Part shown: positions 2,423 to 25,596 of the stretch, piece by piece | How positions within the stretch are numbered: the stretch's first letter is position 1 | Layout: every line of letters starts with the position of its first letter | IMG/VR virus record: IMGVR_UViG_3300006793_000162 | Location: 1 to 30,101 of that record | Length of the DNA: 30,101 nt | Strand: one strand, 5' to 3' | Origin: a virus | Notes under the pieces: generated by a model | Told to the model about the DNA's origin: nothing | The model's database searches: none | Seen by the model: the letters and a program-made list of their open reading frames with translations, nothing else | Program-made: the position numbers and the translations under genes

Positions 2423-2524
2423 TACACGAAACATAAATTCGCACAACTACACGAAACATAAATTCGCATAAAGCAGAAGACTTTTAAAAGCGGTCTTCTA
2501 AAATACACGAAATCAAATTTCGCC
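2423..2524. repeat. Iteron-like repeats (three copies of a 21-bp unit)
   Basis: TACACGAAACATAAATTCGC(A) occurs at 2423-2443 and again, identical, at 2448-2468. A diverged copy, TACACGAAATCAAATTTCGC(C), is at 2504-2524. Each unit has partial dyad symmetry (CGAA...TTCG, or CGAAA...TTTCG in the third). The first two copies are 25 bp apart. A hairpin-forming inverted repeat lies between copies two and three. The array is immediately upstream of a promoter, so it may be an operator array or a replication origin. Confidence 0.75.
2475..2499. repeat. Inverted repeat with nested palindrome
   Basis: AGAAGAC (2475-2481) pairs with GTCTTCT (2493-2499), and the palindrome CTTTTAAAAG (2481-2490) is nested inside. 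No T-tract follows on either strand, so a terminator is unlikely. It sits inside the iteron-like array. Confidence 0.6.
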
Positions 2525-2531
2525 TAAATTG

Positions 2532-2563
2532 TTTGGCTATGTCTAAATGTTTTCTTATCTTTG
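2532..2563 (+). promoter_or_regulatory. Bacteroidota-type promoter P1
   Basis: The -33 element TTTG (2532-2535) and the -7 element TATCTTTG (2556-2563, matching TAnnTTTG) are 20 nt apart. The stretch TTTGGCTATGTCTAAAT (2532-2548) is identical at promoter P2 (5893-5909). TGTCTAAAT occurs twice, at 2540-2548 and 2562-2570, 22 bp apart (about two helical turns), overlapping both core elements as an operator would. It probably drives the genes from 2637 to about 5861. Confidence 0.8.
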
Positions 2564-2636
2564 TCTAAATTAATCAGAGGTCAGAGGACAATACTAGGCA
2601 ATAGTAGGAAGTCTAAACCTCACAAACAAATAAATT

Positions 2637-2990
2637 ATGTGTATAATAATAGTGAAGTCGAAAGACAAGCAAGTCTCACAAGAGACATTAAAAAATTCTG
2701 CAAGAATTAACCCTCACGGATTAGGGGTAATTTTTCTGGATACCAACGAGGTAAAATATTTTAAATCAAAGGATTATAAAGTATTGAATACTAATAGACC
2801 ATACATTGCGCATTTTAGATACGCAACCAAAGGGAAAATCAATAGAGAAAATACGCACCCTTTTATCTGTGGGAAAAACACAGATGAACTGCTAATGCAC
2901 AATGGAACTCTAGTAGGATATGGGTCGCACGACTTATGCGATAGCAAACAACTAGCTATCGAACTAGGGGGCATACCTCGTAGCAACTGA
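2637..2990 (+). CDS. Class II glutamine amidotransferase domain (N-terminal part of an interrupted GAT-II/GGACT gene)
   Basis: 117 aa up to an in-frame TGA at 2988-2990. The protein begins MCIIIVK, so Cys2 would be the N-terminal nucleophile of an Ntn-hydrolase once Met is removed. IAHFRYATKG (HxR motif, about residues 57-66), HPF, and LMHNGTL (oxyanion-hole Asn-Gly) fit class II amidotransferases, which release ammonia from glutamine. The same frame continues past the TGA with residues typical of the rest of this domain (SRFVSYN, then NGVWFSKP), and then enters a cyclotransferase domain with no ATG of its own. So the TGA splits one longer gene: a nonsense mutation, programmed readthrough or a sequencing error. 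Expressed from P1. It is the natural partner of the amidoligase-like gene upstream. Confidence 0.75.
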   Translation: MCIIIVKSKDKQVSQETLKNSARINPHGLGVIFLDTNEVKYFKSKDYKVLNTNRPYIAHFRYATKGKINRENTHPFICGKNTDELLMHNGTLVGYGSHDLCDSKQLAIELGGIPRSN

Positions 2991-3116
2991 AGAGCAGTAC
3001 TAGGTCAGCACGATTCTAGATTTGTTTCATACAATAAGAGGAATAGACAATACGAAATCTATAACAAAGACTTATGGAGTAAGCGTAATGGGGTTTGGTT
3101 TTCTAAACCTAATGTA

Positions 3117-3725
3117 TTGCAAGACAATGTTGTAGCAGTTTATGGTACATTAAAAAAAGGTTATGGAAACCACCGATTATTAATCAATCAAAGATTTGTA
3201 GGGAAAGGAACAACAACCGATAGATACCCACTTATAATTAATGGGCTACCTTATTTAATGGAAGAGAAAGGCAAAGGACATAAAGTAGAGGTAGAAGTTT
3301 ATAAAGTAGATGATGACACCTTTAGAAGTCTTGATGCTTTAGAAGGACACCCAACTTTTTACGAAAGGGTAGAGACAAGTATAACAATGAAGAGCGGTAA
3401 GAAAATTACAGCTTGGATATATTTTAATCGTAGTCAAAAGAACTATACGAATGAAAAATACTATGTAAGGTATACGCGAGATAATACTTGGAACTATTGG
3501 AAACCTAATTATCAAAAGTACCAACCTCAACAATATACAACATATCACGACCGCAAAGACTTGTTCTCTTCATTGTCGGTAATTGCAGACAAAGAAGATG
3601 ACAACGCAAAGTATTGTCAGATATGTTTTGAAGAAGTATACTATGATGAAACTGAAATCAGTAATCAAAAATATCATTGCAGTGTGTGTAATGAAATGTA
3701 TTCAGAGCAAGAGGTTAGTAAATAA
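3117..3725 (+). CDS. Gamma-glutamylamine-cyclotransferase-like (AIG2/GGCT fold) domain with C-terminal zinc ribbon
   Basis: In the same frame as the amidotransferase upstream (2637) and separated from it only by TGA 2988-2990. The boundary used here is a TTG at 3117; no ATG exists between the TGA and the domain, so independent translation is doubtful and the full gene is probably 2637-3725 (362 codons). VAVYGTLKKGYGNHRLL, RYPLII, VEVEVYKVDD and LDALEGHPTFYERV resemble the GGACT branch of the family. The Glu in LDALEG (codon 3342-3344) aligns with its catalytic Glu. The reaction removes a gamma-glutamyl group as 5-oxoproline. The last about 40 residues hold two Cys pairs (CQIC...CSVC), a likely zinc ribbon. 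A hairpin overlaps the stop codon. Confidence 0.7.
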   Translation: MQDNVVAVYGTLKKGYGNHRLLINQRFVGKGTTTDRYPLIINGLPYLMEEKGKGHKVEVEVYKVDDDTFRSLDALEGHPTFYERVETSITMKSGKKITAWIYFNRSQKNYTNEKYYVRYTRDNTWNYWKPNYQKYQPQQYTTYHDRKDLFSSLSVIADKEDDNAKYCQICFEEVYYDETEISNQKYHCSVCNEMYSEQEVSK

Positions 3726-3740
3726 CCTCTGCTTTGTTTA
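3710..3740 (+). terminator. Possible weak terminator or attenuator over the stop codon
   Basis: Perfect 8-bp stem AGAGGTTA (3710-3717) with TAACCTCT (3723-3730), loop GTAAA, followed by the imperfect T-rich stretch GCTTTGTTTA. The stop codon TAA lies in the 3' arm, so translating ribosomes would melt the stem. It may lower expression of the small genes downstream. Confidence 0.45.
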
Positions 3741-3768
3741 CTGAAGTTAAATTTAAAACTAAATAATT

Positions 3769-3975
3769 ATGAAAGAAACAATAGACTTTTTACACGAGCA
3801 AGTCAAGGCTTTGCAGACAGAAGTAGACAAACTCAAAGAAGAAAATACCATCCTGTTTGACTATGCCGATTGTAAAATGGTAGAGGGGTGCGAAGAAGCA
3901 ACACGAGTACTAAATAAAATAGAGTATAATAATGTTGATAATTTTGACTATGAAATTAGAAAATTAAATAAATAA
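3769..3975 (+). CDS. Small coiled-coil protein (68 aa)
   Basis: Starts at ATG after the leader aactaaataatt, which is reused before several genes here. Residues 1-30 have heptad-like hydrophobics with alternating charges (FLHEQVKALQTEVDKLKEE), so a coiled coil is likely. The rest is acidic with two Cys. Family not recognised. The stop codon is followed after 2 nt by the next start (TAA-CT-ATG), which suggests coupled translation. Confidence 0.65.
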   Translation: MKETIDFLHEQVKALQTEVDKLKEENTILFDYADCKMVEGCEEATRVLNKIEYNNVDNFDYEIRKLNK

Positions 3976-6109: not shown

Positions 6110-6182
6110 TGCGAGGTAGAGCAGTGGTCAGCTCGTGAGTCTCATAAACTCAAGGTCAGCAGTTCGAATCTGCTCCTCGCAT
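6110..6182 (+). tRNA. tRNA with CAU anticodon (Met, or Ile2 if C34 is modified)
   Basis: A 73-nt cloverleaf. Acceptor TGCGAGG (6110-6116) pairs with CCTCGCA (6175-6181); T8 and A9 are present. D-arm GAGC/GCTC. Anticodon stem TGAGT/ACTCA with loop CTCATAA and CAT at 6143-6145. T-arm AGCAG/CTGCT with loop TTCGAAT. The discriminator base is T (6182) and CCA is not encoded. It lacks the three G-C pairs of an initiator tRNA anticodon stem, so it is an elongator Met or an Ile2 (AUA-reading) tRNA. AUA codons are common in this AT-rich phage, which would make Ile2 useful, but sequence alone does not decide. Confidence 0.93.
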
Positions 6183-6202
6183 CTAACCAAACAAATAATA
6201 AA

Positions 6203-16776: not shown

Positions 16777-19700
16777 TTAATTTATAAATAAATCATCTCG
16801 TGCATCTTTTGGAGGCAGCCATCTCCTAGGAATAGAACCATCTCCATATCCTAACATTGACCAGAAGTTGTACCAGAAATTACCTTGACCTAAGAATATT
16901 CTAGCAAGACCCCTTGGAGTCCTAAACTGTGCCCCTGCTACAAACTGTAGGATTGTTGAGGGAATTTCTAATATATCTCCCGAGCTTATATCTCTTCCTA
17001 GTTCTTCTGCTAAATCATCTAAAGGATTAGTAATAGCTCTGTTCCATTTATTTTTCCATCCTTCTGCATTAGATTCGTTAAGAAAGGTCTGAAAAGCATT
17101 TCCAAGAAATGGAACTATTTTTACTACATTCATTGGAGACGAGAGTATTCTATCAAAAGCTTTTTCTCTATCTTTTTTATCTCCCCCTAAGAGTAGTGGA
17201 AGGTTTCCAACTAGAGAGAATACCAACTGTACAAAGAAAAGATTAATAAGAAGCCCTCTAACGTCTCTTTTATCAGCCACCTTATTACCCAGTAAAGCTC
17301 GTCTTATATTAGCCTCGTGTACAAAAACTCTGTTTAAAGCTAAAAATAAAGAGCTACCAAACATAGTGAAACCACGAACTACTTTATTTTGACTGGTTTG
17401 TAAAGAGTTTTTATCTAACCCTCGTCTGGTTTGCTGCGTTAAATTGTAGTCATTAAAATAACGCAATGCTTCTTTAGGGTCTACCCCATTTTCAATCATA
17501 TTGTCATAAGCTACCATATACCCTAATACCCCCCAGATATCTCCTTGGGTTGTAAAATATCCAAAAGCTTGGTTAACTAGTTTAAAAGATTGAGCGAGCT
17601 TTTTATATTCAGGCCCTAAGTCTACACGCTCTTGCCCTGTGGTTAAAGCATACATTTTTCCCTCTAAACCTTCTTTTCTTCTGGCTCTAAATTGAGCAGA
17701 CAATTCTGTAGCTCTTCTGATGGTATCTTTTTTATTACGCATTAGCTTCATATAAGCCTGGGTAAACTTGAGAAACTCTCTGGTCTCATTTACTGTTCCT
17801 CCTAATATAGATTTTAAATTTTCAGCTATATCTTCTGCTATTATTTTTAAATCGGTTGTGCTTCTAAATATAGGGTCTCCTTTTTTCTTAGTCTCAAAAA
17901 CAGCAAACTTAGGATTATTATATAATACAAATCCATTAATATAGGAAGAAGCTTGTTTAGGCAACTGAACAGGTTTTAAAGCTAGAGCCCACGAAACCAT
18001 CCGTTCCATTAACCAGGAGTTTACATCATTAAAGTTTTTACTTTTAGTTAAATACCCTTTAGGATGGATAGCATCATTAATAGCTTTGGTAACGGCAGCT
18101 CTAATAAACATTATATCTAGGTAGGTGCGTACAGCAGGGGTGTTAACTATACCGTCCAGAATTTTAACCACTTTTGCATAAGCCTTATACCTTTCATTAT
18201 CTTCTGCGTGCTTTTCTAGTACCGAAAAGAAATCAGCAAACATTACCCTTAATGCTTTAGTGTTTTGAACTCGTTCAGATATCAAAGATGGGCTTATGTT
18301 TTGGAAGTTCTTTACAAATCCTGTGTCAGAAAAAGAACTCCTTTCCGATTCTTTAGATTTAATTCTTTTTTCAGTTTTTCTAGGGAAATAAGGAAACTCT
18401 TGTTTTAAGTTCTGTTGATTTTCTTCAACATACACTGCATTTGTTAAATCAAATTCTTGATACGTCAGCATTTCTAAAACTTCATCTACAAACCTAACAA
18501 GATTTTCTCCTAGATAATCAGTAATCATATCTATTTTTTCTTGTGTAAATCCATCTTGTATCAACATCTCTTTTGCGTCAGGGTGTTTCCATTGCGAATA
18601 GATATACATTAATTGTGGAACAGTTAAACTATTATCTGTAGCCCAGTCTTTTAAAATGGTGTTGGTTTTATCAAAAAGTTTTATTCCCGCTTTTTCTAGT
18701 GTGGAAGCAATTTGCTGAATATTAACCCCAGGAATATTTAATCTGTCTTTTAGTATGGCTTCTTGTTTTATAAATTCATAAGCTGAAATTTTCCCTAGTT
18801 GGCCCTTGAACATTTTTTTGTCTCTAAAAGGTAAAATAACTTCTGAATCAAATTCTTTAGCTCCCATTATTTCAGCTGCTATTTCCTCTATCTTATCCAT
18901 AAATCTGAAATAACCTAGGTTATAATATTCTTCTGCATCCGCTAGTCTATAATAAATATCTTTAACAAATACATCTGACTGCCCATTATCTAAGGCGTTC
19001 ATAAGGGTATAGGTAATACCTAATAAACTTCTAAAGGTAGCTGTAATCGGCTCTATTCCTTTTTGTATTAAAGGCTTTAATATTTCGTCTTTTACCTGTT
19101 GCAGAGATTTTTGAAGACCCTTTTCTTTAATTCCTTTCCATATATTTAAAAAGTCTTCTGCTATTCTGTCCTCGTTTTTTAACGTACCATTTTCATTAAA
19201 TAAGAAAGGAGCTAGCTTCTCTTTTATTTCACTAGTAAACTTCTCTGATATTTCATTAATCTCATTAAACCTTTGCATTCTGTTTTCTGCAAACACTGCT
19301 CTTCCTATTTCTCTTTCTGCTTTTACATCATCCAGAATTTCTCTTACCTCTTCTAATGATAAACTTTCTATATCACCAAACATATCATACGCAGCGGTTA
19401 ATGCTAAAAGTCTATTTTGTTCTAGGCTTAACAGCTCTCCTTTACGGTCAGCTTCTAAGGCCGCTTGAATTTCATTTTCTCTTTCCCCTAACTCCTCACG
19501 CAAAGACTTCATTCCCTCCGCGTCTTTATTAATCACCATCTTTAAAACTCTCCTGGCTTGTTGCATAAACAATCCTGTTTCAGCATCTACTCCTCTTGAC
19601 CTTACTTGGCTTGATATGGTTTTAGCAGGCCTACCCCCTATGTTTAATATTTTATATATAGAATTTATTAAAGCACGTTTCGTTTTTTCATTTTGTTTAT

Positions 19701-22700
19701 CTATAGCTTGCAATACTCTTTCTACAGCTGCCATATAATCATCTGGAGTTTCTATATCCGCTACAACTTTAGTTAAGCTTCTTAATATACTTTTAGTGGT
19801 GTCTGTTTCATCAGGAAAGTTTAATCTTATAAATCTTACTAATTCATTTTTTACTCTATTAATATCTCTAACTGCTCTCTTTCGTTCAGTAATTAATTTT
19901 TTTAATTCTTTAATCTCTGCAGTAACCTCTTTACCTGTTCTGATATTTAAGTTCTTATCTAATGCTACTACTAATTCTTGCTGGATATTTTTAGGCTGTT
20001 GCTTAAATAAAACAGAGCCTTGTAAATATTCTTTAGCAAACTTTCTAACCTCGGATTTTTTTCTTAGCACCTCCCCTTTTTTAATAGGCAATGGATACCT
20101 TCTTAATATAGTGCTGGTATTTTGAGTTTTTAAGTCAGGGTATTTTCTTCTTAATTCTGCCGCATACTCGTTTCTTACATCTTCTAATATTCCTCTTTCT
20201 CCTATAAATTCATTAACTGCTCTGTTCACATCTTGAAATAAAGACATCCCTGCAAAGAAACCACCTTCCATATTAGCAAAGGCTTCAGGTAAAGCTTTAG
20301 TTTCATCTAATGTAAATTTCATTGCAGCATCTACATCAGCAGCTGTATAATTAACATCTGTAAATTTTATCCTATCCTTTAATACTTTTTTAATGGAAGC
20401 GTCTGGTATACCACGCTCTCGTGCTCTTTGAATAATAAGGTTTACATCTGAATCAAAAGATAATGTTTCTTCTTTTTGAGAAAATAAAGATAATTGAGGA
20501 GACTCTTCAGGAACAAAATCAGGATTAACTTCTTGACCACCTAATAAATCACCCAGGGCCATATTTGCAAACCTTTCTAATGACATTTGTTCTAACGCTT
20601 CACCTTCAGGCATCGTGCTTTCTCTTTCTCCTTTTTTATTCTTTTTAAACGTACCTGATAACCAGTTTTTTATGTAAGCCCAGAATTTTTTTATCCATCT
20701 TATAAAAGGATTTTCTTTTGCTTTTTTACTTTTACTAAAGTCACTTTCTACATATCTAGCAAACCTACCCCCCTCATCAGCAATATAATCCGACAATGCT
20801 TCTATTGCTGCTAACTCATATCCTTGTTTTGTTTTTTTATCTCCGTATATACGTTTAGCTTCATCATAATAGGGTTTACCTCTAGAGTCAGTTTTTACTA
20901 CTTTTATTCCTTGACGCAGCAAAGCAGTCCCTTGGGTTCCAGCAGGAGATGCTAAGTAATCCAACCACGGGTGAGAAAACTCGTGTATAGCAATTTCAAA
21001 TGATTTGTCGTTAGGATTTATAAATATGGTATTATTATTTCTATTCATTCCATATACAGTATACCCACGAACTATTCTTCTTTGTACTTCAGGTTTTTTT
21101 ATTTCTGCATCAAACTTGGCCTGGTCAACAACTACTTTATAAGTTGGAAAGGCTAGGCTTAATAGCTTTAAAAGTTCAGCCTGGTCTTTCGCACTCATTT
21201 GTGGCCTAGTTTTTGCCCTCTTTCCAAAATCAGGGTGAGCTGTGGGATTGTAAAAAGAACCATCACGAGTAAAAATATAACCAGGGCCTCGGCTTTTTCT
21301 CACAGTAATACCGAGCTTTTCTCCTTCACTTATAAGTCTAGACGGATTATCTACATTATTCATATACCCTTCATCATTCATTCCATAATCTTCAGCTAGT
21401 TTATCAATAGCATATTGATTTCTAGCTAGTTTGAAAAAGGTTCCATCTTCTAAATCTTTCGCTAACTTTGCTTCTTCTGCGGAGTAGGTAGTAGCTTTAT
21501 CTTCTGCTTTTTTAGGTTTTGGAGTACGGGCTTTTACCGCTTTTCTAGCCTCTCTTTTTATTTCAGCTATTTCAGCTTTGTATTCACGAATAAGCTCTCT
21601 GGCTTCTTGCCTTAAGTCTGATTTTTCTTCTTTACTTAACCCAGGTTTTTTTAAATCTTTAGCTAACTCTTGTTTTACATTTGTTATTTCATTTTCTAAA
21701 TCTTCAATCTCCATACCTGCATCTTCATCGATTGCTTCCTGTTGTTTTTGTTTAGTTTGAGGCTTTACTTTTTTAGCCGCGTCTTTTATCTTTTTCTTAA
21801 TAGCAGCTTTTAAGTTTTTAATCCTTCTCTCTAGTTTTGGTTTATTATCTATAATGACTTCTAACATATCCTCAGTTCCTTCTTCAATAGCTTTATTAGT
21901 ATTCTCTAAAGCTTTTTCTGCTTCAGCTAATTCTTCTTTTAATTCTTTTAAAGATTTACCTTCCGATATCTCTTCACTAGATTTCTCAATACTTTCAATA
22001 TTTTCTGGTGTAACATCTACTATTACTTCAGATTCAATTCCTGGAACCCATACTGCTACATCCTTAGGTTTTACTTTTGTTTTAGTAATATTAGAAGACA
22101 ACCCTTGGTCTGCTCTTTCTTTAGATAGAATTTCAGCCATTTTCTTACTAGTAGTCATAGGTGTAGCACCTTCTCTAATTGAACCAACTCTATAAACCAC
22201 AATATCTCCGTTCTCATCTATTTCAGTATCGGGATTGTTTTTTAAAAATTCTTCTTTTAATTTTTCTTTTTGTTTTGCTGGTAACTTTTTAACTGTTTCG
22301 ACTAGCTTATTTTTTTCTGAACTATCACCTTCCATTCCTCCTCCTAAATCACTCTGCTTATAATCCGCTAGAGCTTTTTCATAATCTTCATCTTCCGCAA
22401 TAGTTGCGCTTACTTTAGAGGGAGGTAATTGGGCAAATGCATCAGCAGTCGTATCTAATATACGCTGCATTAATGATGGAGACACCTGAGTCATTGATGG
22501 TTCCCATTTTCCATTAAGAGCAATTTCACTTATTTCATCATTGATTTGTTTTATAACAGGTTTAAATGCTTGTTGCGTGGCATCATTTGTAGTTAATACA
22601 TTTTTCGCGGCTAACAAGTGAGTTAAACGTGCTACCGAGTCGGAGTTTTCTGGAGTCACATCATCTGCTTTAGTCATTAATATTTCTAAAGCTTCATTTT

Positions 22701-25596
22701 GTGCTCCTACTCTGCGCTGTATACGCTGTTCTGTGTCTGCATCAATATAATTTAACTCCCTCATATTATTAGCCCAGTTAGTTGTGCCTGGTGGTAGCAA
22801 TGGAGTATCATCAAATATTACATTCCATTTGTAATCAGCGAAATCTGAAGCCACTTTTTTACTTCTATTAATCAATCCTTGTGCTAATAAATTTGCTACC
22901 ATATTAGAAGTGTTAGCTCCAAATCCTCCGATGGCTTCCAAAGCTACTTCACCTCCATTTAATTCTGTTCCATTTAATATATGGTTATTTATTTGAGCTA
23001 ACGCTTCTCCCAATCCTTCGGCAGCAGGGTCAATCAATGCTCTTTCTGTTAATATAGCTCCTGTTCTTAACAAAGGATTCATTCCTCTTGTGCTGTAAAA
23101 TATTTTCCCAGCTAATCTAGCCGACAAGAAATCTATTATAGCAATAGGGATACCTCGTGCTAATCCCTTACTTTGCCCGTCATCCCAAACATTTTTATCA
23201 CTTAATGCCGCTTCAACAGATTTAGGATTAAATATATCATAACCCTTTTCTTCCATTGATTCAAATATGGCGTTAGTATATTCCATTCCTAAAATACTTC
23301 CTGCCATTCCTAGTTGAGCTCCTGTTACCGCCCCTGTAAACATTGACGCAGGTACTGTCAATAATTCTTCAGGCGTAGCAGCTTGGGGGCCCGCTTGGCC
23401 CGCTGCGAGTGCGTATGCCCCATAAGCTAGAGAGGTAGTGAGAGCTGTTGCAGGAACCATCTTAGCTCCATAAGGAAGCATCTCACTAAGGGAGCCAGAA
23501 GCCACACTTAAAGCCATTTCCATCGGGTTATCGGTAAACACCTCCAGTGATTCTCGCCATCCTTTTGCGCGTCTAAAATCTAAAGCAGTCGCGCTTGTTC
23601 CTTCTGAAGCTAGTACGGATGCTTTCATATATTTAGAAATTAATTCTGAAGCAACTCTTCTGTCTTCTGCATTTGTAGCATCTCTGTCGTCCCACCCTAT
23701 AGCCGAAAAACTAGTCGTGTCTGCTAATTCCAGTATAACCTCTGCTGCTTGACCTCTAGGATATCTCGTGTTGTATTCATTTACTACATTATTCCAAACC
23801 TTATTTACTACTTCCCCGTATAGTTCTTTGTTTATTTTAGAATCTAGATAGGATTTTCCTACGATAAAATTTAATGCAGCAGTTTCTCTTAAGTCATAGG
23901 CGCGTCTTTGCAGCTCTGTAAGTGCACTTATAGCTAGAGCTTCATTTTCATTTTTAGGAGTGTAAGAACTTATCTCCGAAAAAGGAGTTTCAAAATTTGT
24001 TAATGAAAATTTATCTATTTCATCTAATGCAAAATCTACTTGCGCATTTGCTTGAGTAGAGTTATTAATAAATTTCTCTCTGTTTTTGTCTGCGATAACA
24101 TCCCATTGCTGTTGAATATCTCTATATACTTCATCTCCAAAAGCTTTCTCAAATAACACATCTATTTGTGGCTTTAAGCTTTGTGCGTATTCTTTAGCAT
24201 CACTTCTTAAATATCCTTCTTCATTAAATAAGTTAGGGTATTTAGCTATTTCTTCTGGAGTGGCTTTTCTATCTTTATCCCAGGCTTTTTGCTTTGCCCA
24301 AAAACCTCCATCTGCTGTTCCTCCTAATATTAATTGGTATTCATCTCTTAAAGTGTGATAGTTTTCTACTATTTCTTTTCGACTATCATAATCTACAACC
24401 CCTTCATTTATAAAAAAGTTTCTTCTTTCTACATCCGCAGTGTCCATTGTTTTCCAACTTCCTTTAGCAAATGAATCCGCTTCTTCTTTTGTATTAAAAG
24501 GTATCAGTTCTCCATATCTAGTAGCTAGTTCTATAATTAATTTTTGGTCTCGTTTAGGGTCTAACTCTAGCCAAGCATCTGGACGCGTAGAGTGCGTCCC
24601 TTCTCTAGGAAATAAAGTAGGAGCGACATAATGTTTGCCATCCATTTCAAAAGTAGCTAATTTAACTGTTGACGCTGTAACATTTCCACTTCTATCCTTT
24701 TCTAAACGAGGTACTTGACGCATATTTTTAACCTGAATAGCTTTTTCTAAAAGAGGAACATTAGGGTCTACAAGTTTAGGTGCACGAGCATTTTCAGTAA
24801 AGAGTTTTTGTAATTGTACTAACTGGTCAATATTATCAGCATCATCTCCTGTATTTAAAAAAACCTCTCCTTTTCCGTTCACCGCTGTTACAACTATTGG
24901 GCTACTACTCACCCAGTTAGTAGAGTCGCGGGCATCGAAACTTACATTAAACCCATACTCTCCAATTAGACTTCTTAATATTTCAACAGATTCACGGGGG
25001 TTATTATCAGAAAAAATATTAGTGTTTAAAGATTTTAAGGTTTCAATATACTCAGGAGTTTGAGCTAGTTTTTCTAAGTTAGCTTGGTTTAGAGCAGCAT
25101 TATTATCAATACGCTCTTGAAGTTTTTGGTCGGCCGTTACATTAGCCTCTACTTGTTCAGGGGATATATCGGGAAAGTTTGGGTCATCACCTGCTTGTAA
25201 TTTTTGCTCTTCTTTTAATAAATCTACAGCTGCTGTAAACACGCCTCCCTTTTCTTTTATAGTTTCCCACCATCCACGGAAAGTTTCTCCTAATGGGGTA
25301 ACAGGGTCGTCTTGTATATTAGGTTTATAGGTTAAATCATCTTCAGGAAAAAGGCCACCATCTAGAGAAGTGCGATATTGATTTTTTTTTTGAGGCAACC
25401 CCTCTAATCCCATTAAAGCACCAAATTGATTTAAGTCTCCATTGTAGCCATTATTAGTAGCTAAACCGTATACATCATTTAGTGCGTCTGGATTTTGAGA
25501 AATCAGGTCTTTAAAATCTTCTTTACCGTGTCTATAGCCGTCTTTAACAGCTAATTGAAACATATCATTTAAAGCTTCGTTGTTAGTTATTTCCAT
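16777..25596 (-). CDS. Giant polyvalent virion protein with HExxH metallopeptidase motif (2939 aa)
   Basis: Residues 7-62 hold two related units (EALNDMFQLAVKDGY... and DALNDVYGLATNNGY...). Residues about 690-910 are Gly/Ala-rich and hydrophobic, with candidate membrane segments. Near 1130-1190, DIVVYRVGSIREGATPMTTS resembles ADP-ribosyltransferase-type modules. About 1195-1390 is a Lys/Glu coiled coil. HEFSHPWLDYL (near 1538) with EALSDYIAD about 60 residues later looks like a zinc-peptidase site. Long helical stretches follow, and a hydrophobic LLINLFFVQLVFSLVGNLPL (near 2780) comes before the end. Such packed-domain giants (polyvalent proteins) are known to ride in virions and enter hosts with DNA. 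Position after two smaller virion-like genes fits a gp16-like ejection protein. The individual domains are eye-matched. Confidence 0.7.
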   Translation of the reverse strand: MEITNNEALNDMFQLAVKDGYRHGKEDFKDLISQNPDALNDVYGLATNNGYNGDLNQFGALMGLEGLPQKKNQYRTSLDGGLFPEDDLTYKPNIQDDPVTPLGETFRGWWETIKEKGGVFTAAVDLLKEEQKLQAGDDPNFPDISPEQVEANVTADQKLQERIDNNAALNQANLEKLAQTPEYIETLKSLNTNIFSDNNPRESVEILRSLIGEYGFNVSFDARDSTNWVSSSPIVVTAVNGKGEVFLNTGDDADNIDQLVQLQKLFTENARAPKLVDPNVPLLEKAIQVKNMRQVPRLEKDRSGNVTASTVKLATFEMDGKHYVAPTLFPREGTHSTRPDAWLELDPKRDQKLIIELATRYGELIPFNTKEEADSFAKGSWKTMDTADVERRNFFINEGVVDYDSRKEIVENYHTLRDEYQLILGGTADGGFWAKQKAWDKDRKATPEEIAKYPNLFNEEGYLRSDAKEYAQSLKPQIDVLFEKAFGDEVYRDIQQQWDVIADKNREKFINNSTQANAQVDFALDEIDKFSLTNFETPFSEISSYTPKNENEALAISALTELQRRAYDLRETAALNFIVGKSYLDSKINKELYGEVVNKVWNNVVNEYNTRYPRGQAAEVILELADTTSFSAIGWDDRDATNAEDRRVASELISKYMKASVLASEGTSATALDFRRAKGWRESLEVFTDNPMEMALSVASGSLSEMLPYGAKMVPATALTTSLAYGAYALAAGQAGPQAATPEELLTVPASMFTGAVTGAQLGMAGSILGMEYTNAIFESMEEKGYDIFNPKSVEAALSDKNVWDDGQSKGLARGIPIAIIDFLSARLAGKIFYSTRGMNPLLRTGAILTERALIDPAAEGLGEALAQINNHILNGTELNGGEVALEAIGGFGANTSNMVANLLAQGLINRSKKVASDFADYKWNVIFDDTPLLPPGTTNWANNMRELNYIDADTEQRIQRRVGAQNEALEILMTKADDVTPENSDSVARLTHLLAAKNVLTTNDATQQAFKPVIKQINDEISEIALNGKWEPSMTQVSPSLMQRILDTTADAFAQLPPSKVSATIAEDEDYEKALADYKQSDLGGGMEGDSSEKNKLVETVKKLPAKQKEKLKEEFLKNNPDTEIDENGDIVVYRVGSIREGATPMTTSKKMAEILSKERADQGLSSNITKTKVKPKDVAVWVPGIESEVIVDVTPENIESIEKSSEEISEGKSLKELKEELAEAEKALENTNKAIEEGTEDMLEVIIDNKPKLERRIKNLKAAIKKKIKDAAKKVKPQTKQKQQEAIDEDAGMEIEDLENEITNVKQELAKDLKKPGLSKEEKSDLRQEARELIREYKAEIAEIKREARKAVKARTPKPKKAEDKATTYSAEEAKLAKDLEDGTFFKLARNQYAIDKLAEDYGMNDEGYMNNVDNPSRLISEGEKLGITVRKSRGPGYIFTRDGSFYNPTAHPDFGKRAKTRPQMSAKDQAELLKLLSLAFPTYKVVVDQAKFDAEIKKPEVQRRIVRGYTVYGMNRNNNTIFINPNDKSFEIAIHEFSHPWLDYLASPAGTQGTALLRQGIKVVKTDSRGKPYYDEAKRIYGDKKTKQGYELAAIEALSDYIADEGGRFARYVESDFSKSKKAKENPFIRWIKKFWAYIKNWLSGTFKKNKKGERESTMPEGEALEQMSLERFANMALGDLLGGQEVNPDFVPEESPQLSLFSQKEETLSFDSDVNLIIQRARERGIPDASIKKVLKDRIKFTDVNYTAADVDAAMKFTLDETKALPEAFANMEGGFFAGMSLFQDVNRAVNEFIGERGILEDVRNEYAAELRRKYPDLKTQNTSTILRRYPLPIKKGEVLRKKSEVRKFAKEYLQGSVLFKQQPKNIQQELVVALDKNLNIRTGKEVTAEIKELKKLITERKRAVRDINRVKNELVRFIRLNFPDETDTTKSILRSLTKVVADIETPDDYMAAVERVLQAIDKQNEKTKRALINSIYKILNIGGRPAKTISSQVRSRGVDAETGLFMQQARRVLKMVINKDAEGMKSLREELGERENEIQAALEADRKGELLSLEQNRLLALTAAYDMFGDIESLSLEEVREILDDVKAEREIGRAVFAENRMQRFNEINEISEKFTSEIKEKLAPFLFNENGTLKNEDRIAEDFLNIWKGIKEKGLQKSLQQVKDEILKPLIQKGIEPITATFRSLLGITYTLMNALDNGQSDVFVKDIYYRLADAEEYYNLGYFRFMDKIEEIAAEIMGAKEFDSEVILPFRDKKMFKGQLGKISAYEFIKQEAILKDRLNIPGVNIQQIASTLEKAGIKLFDKTNTILKDWATDNSLTVPQLMYIYSQWKHPDAKEMLIQDGFTQEKIDMITDYLGENLVRFVDEVLEMLTYQEFDLTNAVYVEENQQNLKQEFPYFPRKTEKRIKSKESERSSFSDTGFVKNFQNISPSLISERVQNTKALRVMFADFFSVLEKHAEDNERYKAYAKVVKILDGIVNTPAVRTYLDIMFIRAAVTKAINDAIHPKGYLTKSKNFNDVNSWLMERMVSWALALKPVQLPKQASSYINGFVLYNNPKFAVFETKKKGDPIFRSTTDLKIIAEDIAENLKSILGGTVNETREFLKFTQAYMKLMRNKKDTIRRATELSAQFRARRKEGLEGKMYALTTGQERVDLGPEYKKLAQSFKLVNQAFGYFTTQGDIWGVLGYMVAYDNMIENGVDPKEALRYFNDYNLTQQTRRGLDKNSLQTSQNKVVRGFTMFGSSLFLALNRVFVHEANIRRALLGNKVADKRDVRGLLINLFFVQLVFSLVGNLPLLLGGDKKDREKAFDRILSSPMNVVKIVPFLGNAFQTFLNESNAEGWKNKWNRAITNPLDDLAEELGRDISSGDILEIPSTILQFVAGAQFRTPRGLARIFLGQGNFWYNFWSMLGYGDGSIPRRWLPPKDARDDLFIN

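Follow-up and report, generated by a model that had tools for sequence, protein, structure and literature searches.

Programmed UGA read-through is very probably how a tailed phage makes a whole amidotransferase-cyclotransferase from a gene interrupted by one in-frame stop codon, a conclusion reached without protein or ribosome data. The gene lies in the window, the whole 30,101-base stretch analyzed here, which comes from an IMG/VR virus record. Its frame runs from 2637 to 3725 on the plus strand. The conclusion builds on a conserved TGA at a tryptophan site, coding constraint behind it, and a frozen element strictly linked to it, each of them demonstrated at the level of sequence comparison. 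Read-through itself is inferred.

The interrupted gene and its predicted enzyme

The frame comprises 362 codons and ends in TAA, and the TGA at codon 118 is its only internal stop, as a preliminary description of this DNA had stated (Table 1). The predicted product is 117 aa long if this TGA terminates. Pfam places GATase_4 ahead of the TGA and GGACT behind it. In a structure model (mean pLDDT 80.1, pTM 0.51), residue 118 is part of helix 115-122, which is followed by strands 128-133 and 138-142. This bears out the earlier proposal that the residues after the TGA finish the amidotransferase domain. As modeled, the amidotransferase core of the 117-aa short form would be missing this helix and both strands, and this form is probably inactive. 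The cyclotransferase domain was also rightly said to have no ATG of its own, though TTG at 3117 (codon 161) might act as a start.

Table 1. Coordinates of the interrupted gene and of its features in the window.
Feature	Positions	Strand	Evidence
First gene part: start, N-terminal Cys2, most of the class-II glutamine amidotransferase domain	2637-2990	+	ORF calls; GATase_4 2.8e-7; M1-C2, N89-G90, and D102 invariant in 28 aligned relatives
In-frame TGA at codon 118, an otherwise invariant Trp site	2988-2990	+	TGA in 18 of 111 rows (one clade), TGG in 93; TGA in 20 of 20 other element-bearing contigs
Candidate cis read-through stimulator, conserved 3' element CTAGGTCARCACGATTCTAGATT, beginning 9 nt past the TGA	3000-3022	+	22 of 23 bases invariant in 8 representatives; synonymous-conservation peak; 20-nt core in 20 contigs, all with TGA
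Second gene part, same frame: amidotransferase end, cyclotransferase domain, four-Cys tail	2991-3725	+	Pfam; clade alignment; dN < dS in the clade
GGACT (gamma-glutamylamine cyclotransferase / AIG2-like) domain	3132-3440	+	PF06094 1.1e-24; human GGACT 3jub, Foldseek E 2.5e-9
Four invariant Cys (327, 330, 348, 351), probable zinc ribbon (inference)	3615-3689	+	Invariant columns in 28 relatives

The first domain meets the criteria for a class-II glutamine amidotransferase, namely the GATase_4 match, invariant C2, N89, and G90 in 28 relatives, and a Foldseek match to GFAT-1 (E 2.1e-6). The roles of these motifs, an N-terminal Cys nucleophile after Met1 and an NG motif, are assumed here. The second domain meets the criteria for a GGACT / AIG2-like protein, with its Pfam match and with Y169-G170-T171-L172 and E236 invariant in the same number of relatives. 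Mouse GGACT has a Glu in line with E236, probably the active-site Glu82, and an E82Q mutant appears among the Foldseek structure matches. Judged by its domains, the enzyme joins a glutaminase-type domain to a gamma-glutamylamine-cyclotransferase-like domain.

The gene directly upstream (1215-2282) is also conserved and contains the stretches IGMEVEK, CGGHITI, and LEFRL, which we take to recall amidoligases. In phage C75C1, the gene in the upstream position matches Amidoligase_2 (3.5e-30). Neither Pfam nor a profile comparison with this C75C1 neighbor gave a match for the 1215-2282 protein, which is not claimed as an amidoligase. A joint role of the enzyme with the upstream gene was not shown by the Pfam search and profile comparison of 1215-2282.

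Codon 118 and its downstream sequence among relatives

The phage clade is represented mostly by fragments, the longest of 58.9 kb. Relatives of the window primase are found in podovirus MW202828 and in phages of Flavobacterium, Polaribacter, Cellulophaga, and other Bacteroidota, so a host among the Bacteroidota, probably of the Flavobacteriia, is inferred. A search for cellular homologues and for the host returned one weak match only, which does not point to a host. The minus strand of the window (16777-25596) contains an ORF of 2939 aa, probably encoding a giant virion protein, that is ~31% identical to its counterpart in clade genome G004; neighboring genes are near 90%.

A scan with the first 117 residues found 20 loci. 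TGA occupies codon 118 in 19 of them, of which L004 and L005 are identical to the window over these residues and the remainder 79-83% identical. The most distant locus (L023, 60% identity) has TGG. Full-length clade proteins are 60-73% identical to the window protein. The same-codon TGA is present in 20 other IMG/VR contigs of the clade, whose proteins diverge by up to about 40%.

More relatives were collected with two profile scans. The best 80 of 135 relatives from the first scan, together with the window and two GenBank phages, make up 83 rows, with TGA in 18, TGG in 65, and no other codon. Among the best 80 of 243 relatives from the second, 52 were already included and dropped, and the 28 sequences added have TGG in all cases. 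The combined 111 rows hold 18 TGA (11 distinct) and 93 TGG (89 distinct), and leave out the lower-ranked relatives of both scans and the more distant MEP401 protein. Outside the clade, all 93 rows drawn from these best-ranked relatives have TGG, as does L023. The preliminary description had guessed that the stop replaces a tryptophan and had proposed homologues as the check; the alignment agrees with the guess. Other Trp codons of the gene are TGG throughout in 8/8 representatives.

The TGG relatives keep one fused gene. The GenBank phages MW202828 (UOF82491.1) and OQ984151 (WJE88161.1) carry intact fusions that resemble the window gene in domain order, MC start, and Trp at the same column, and differ from it in having TGG and no 3' element. 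A tree built without the codon-118 column requires, as drawn, two changes for the TGA rows, of which supported branches force only one. A single origin of the TGA is likely and consistent with this tree, and is unproven.

Beyond the TGA, the frame remains open for 243-279 codons in full-length clade copies. In 15 pairs of six representatives, dN is below dS on both sides of the TGA. dN is 0.06-0.20 before it, 0.03-0.16 in codons 119-160, and 0.13-0.49 in codons 161-270, and dS in the ranges up to codon 270 extends from 0.30 (in codons 119-160) to saturation. Codons 300-362, which form the tail, vary more in these pairs (dN 0.02-0.84, dS 0.24 to saturation). Because so many codons are open and dN is well below dS, the open frame exceeds chance. 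Judged by these rates, both flanks of the TGA are under purifying selection, and a stop conserved across species and followed by purifying selection in the same frame is one criterion for read-through, which this gene fulfills.

The 20-nt core CTAGGTCARCACGATTCTAG is found in 20 viral contigs and always lies 9 nt past the codon-118 TGA (20/20 contigs and the window). It is absent elsewhere in the window, even with three mismatches. TGG fusions L031 and L032 are without the element, which is exclusive to TGA contigs; in the records compared, the two are strictly linked. A looser pattern matched 83 stretches, 80 of which were read. Nineteen of these 80 extend to the full element, and all 19 belong to the codon-118 gene. 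The others look like chance, and another home for the element was rejected.

Synonymous codons were compared in eight TGA representatives of the 11 distinct sequences (near-copies excluded) and in 20 TGG relatives chosen from the 65 rows. At codons 122-128, the TGA clade has the same codon in 189 of 196 same-residue pairs (whole gene, 3997/6526); the chosen TGG relatives have it in 276 of 739. This segment ranks at the top of 265 seven-codon segments for synonymous conservation, a level reached by 51 of 100,000 random column sets. The synonymous freezing of codons 122-128 is, in this comparison, limited to the TGA clade. The gene start is also conserved (codons 1-10, same codon in 222/252 pairs), which is usual for gene starts.

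A weak bulged hairpin is predicted at the element in 6/6 sequences. It is mostly no better than shuffles, and none of its predicted pairs covary. A strong RNA structure is unsupported, and the term sequence element is used because the hairpin mostly does not exceed shuffles. The Rfam search of 2500-3800 gave four matches only, all below the gathering score, of unrelated kinds, and judged to be chance. Since one origin is likely, element and TGA would have become associated once in evolution and then been kept together, and the evidence rests on what was retained in later divergence. The frozen sequence could serve another purpose.

Explanations other than read-through

Termination at the TGA with re-initiation downstream would give two proteins. 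GTG or TTG is available at codons 160/161, just ahead of the cyclotransferase domain, in 7/8 representatives. L040 has neither GTG160 nor TTG161, and from the TGA to codon 165 the eight have no start codon in common. A start at 160/161 would also leave codons 119-160 untranslated, and these are modeled within the amidotransferase fold and constrained as protein. Together with the single fused gene of the TGG relatives, this makes re-initiation improbable. The conserved sequence directly 3' of an in-frame UGA would suit selenocysteine. This reading expects Cys in homologues, and the 93 TGG rows from the best 80 of 135 and best 80 of 243 relatives have Trp in every case and never Cys; the chance Rfam matches offer it nothing, and it is highly improbable. 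A nonsense mutation, pseudogene, or sequencing or assembly error has in its favor that TGA and TGG differ by one base and that an isolated in-frame TGA also occurs in a conserved G015 gene. The same TGA in 20 other contigs and coding constraint on both sides leave this reading next to no chance. The preliminary description had left three options for the TGA. Conservation and constraint support deliberate read-through; sequencing error is excluded by the 20 contigs, and a recent nonsense mutation is excluded because proteins only ~60% identical still share the TGA and the codons after it are under purifying selection.

A general reading of UGA as Trp in the phage or host, through code 4 or a suppressor tRNA, would fit the residue at the site and is very unlikely. 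All called genes of at least 60 aa were searched against twelve genomes for Trp-aligned TGA (3203 alignments). Within a conserved gene, the codon-118 site was recovered in 8/8 clade genomes, and the only other case rests on one alignment of two small ORFs (G007, 29008) and is not trusted; called genes of each clade contig contain 90-197 TGG codons. The first all-frames search for conserved TGA returned mostly antisense or shifted frames of real genes, and the gene-based search was used instead. With crude gene calling in seven clade contigs and one outgroup contig, ORFs ending in TGA number from 3/40 up to 9/53 per contig. Among them are conserved genes whose TGA has TAA or TAG within a few codons after it. 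A UGA=Trp code would place UGA at Trp sites genome-wide, which is not seen, and TGA serves as a stop. Termination of other genes of the same genomes by TGA is a further criterion for read-through that is met. The preliminary description had named 2282 and 14641 as TGA ends and had thought genome-wide recoding unlikely, and both points stand.

No suppressor tRNA or tRNA-Trp(UCA) was found in the clade records searched. The sole tRNA in them is tRNA-Met(CAU), carried by the three records of the window species; the 17 other clade records, mostly fragments, have none. The tRNA-Met(CAU) gene of the window (6110-6183) overlaps same-strand ORFs and, among the clade records searched, is restricted to the window species. 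Gene content includes many clade-restricted small genes, none distinctive as a recoding factor. A host tRNA-Trp with unusual UGA reading, as described in PMC13092985, is not excluded as a helper.

One further lone TGA was noted in a conserved gene. L202 (G015:C1:20001-40000) contains a conserved phage gene of ~313 codons (contig 33818-34756, minus strand) whose single in-frame TGA stands at a position occupied by D, E, Q, or T in relatives. In contrast to the codon-118 TGA, it is probably an isolated mutation or an assembly error.

In-frame stop hopping could mimic read-through, and no natural case is known according to PMC5009743. It was rejected, as codon 117 is AAC, CAA, or AAA and the codon that follows the TGA does not match it. 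Frameshifting was dropped, the frame being unchanged, and mRNA editing of the UGA was dropped with evidence neither way.

Probable read-through in a tailed phage

Under programmed read-through, ribosomes would start at 2637. Some would terminate at codon 118 and release the 117-aa fragment. Others would insert an amino acid, most likely Trp via the host near-cognate tRNA-Trp(CCA), and continue in frame to a 362-aa enzyme. The conserved sequence 9 nt downstream may act in cis, raising or setting the level of read-through; this stimulation is inferred, with no measured effect. TGG is one transition away, yet no clade member has it, from which selection for partial termination or regulation is inferred. 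Since the short form is without the helix and two strands, limiting or regulating the dose or timing of the enzyme would be a likelier benefit than use of the fragment. The argument is weakest here.

Among bacterial stop codons, UGA leaks most, at a level of at least 1e-2 to 1e-3 (PMC4989110). In the RNA coliphage Qbeta, UGA is read as Trp about 1 in 15 times, and the coat/A1 gene resembles the present one in having a single leaky UGA, Trp insertion, and short and long products from one start (PMC8067240). The Qbeta short form is the major coat protein, with the UGA after a complete domain. In contrast, the window phage is a tailed DNA phage whose UGA interrupts a catalytic domain and takes the place of an invariant, ancestral Trp; the frozen sequence begins 9 nt after it. 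The 3' stimulator of MuLV has a spacer of about eight bases, and the nine-base spacer of the window element resembles the spacing of known 3' stimulators. Conserved sequence close 3' of the stop is likewise a feature of the MuLV gag-pol UAG pseudoknot and the alphavirus UGA stem-loop (PMC8310308). Those systems use eukaryotic ribosomes and known RNA structures, whereas the window phage has only a short conserved sequence and a weak predicted hairpin.

A bolder version of read-through is possible but doubtful. It holds that tailed phages encode a dedicated signal that acts in cis to recode a single UGA as Trp with high, possibly regulated efficiency, so that active enzyme is made only under certain conditions. 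Such a signal would be a Trp counterpart of SECIS, responding, e.g., to levels of RF2 or charged tRNA-Trp during infection.

Few natural cases of UGA read-through have been worked out in bacteria and their viruses. Among open-license PMC papers, judged by title and abstract start, none was found to describe this gene or a conserved case of UGA read-through in a tailed phage. Standard gene calling would cut the gene in two and hide the whole enzyme. The case is an evolutionarily conserved candidate within a tailed-phage enzyme domain, with a compact clade-specific candidate signal and with TGG relatives as natural controls. With it, the ability of a short mRNA sequence to promote read-through by bacterial ribosomes can be tested directly.
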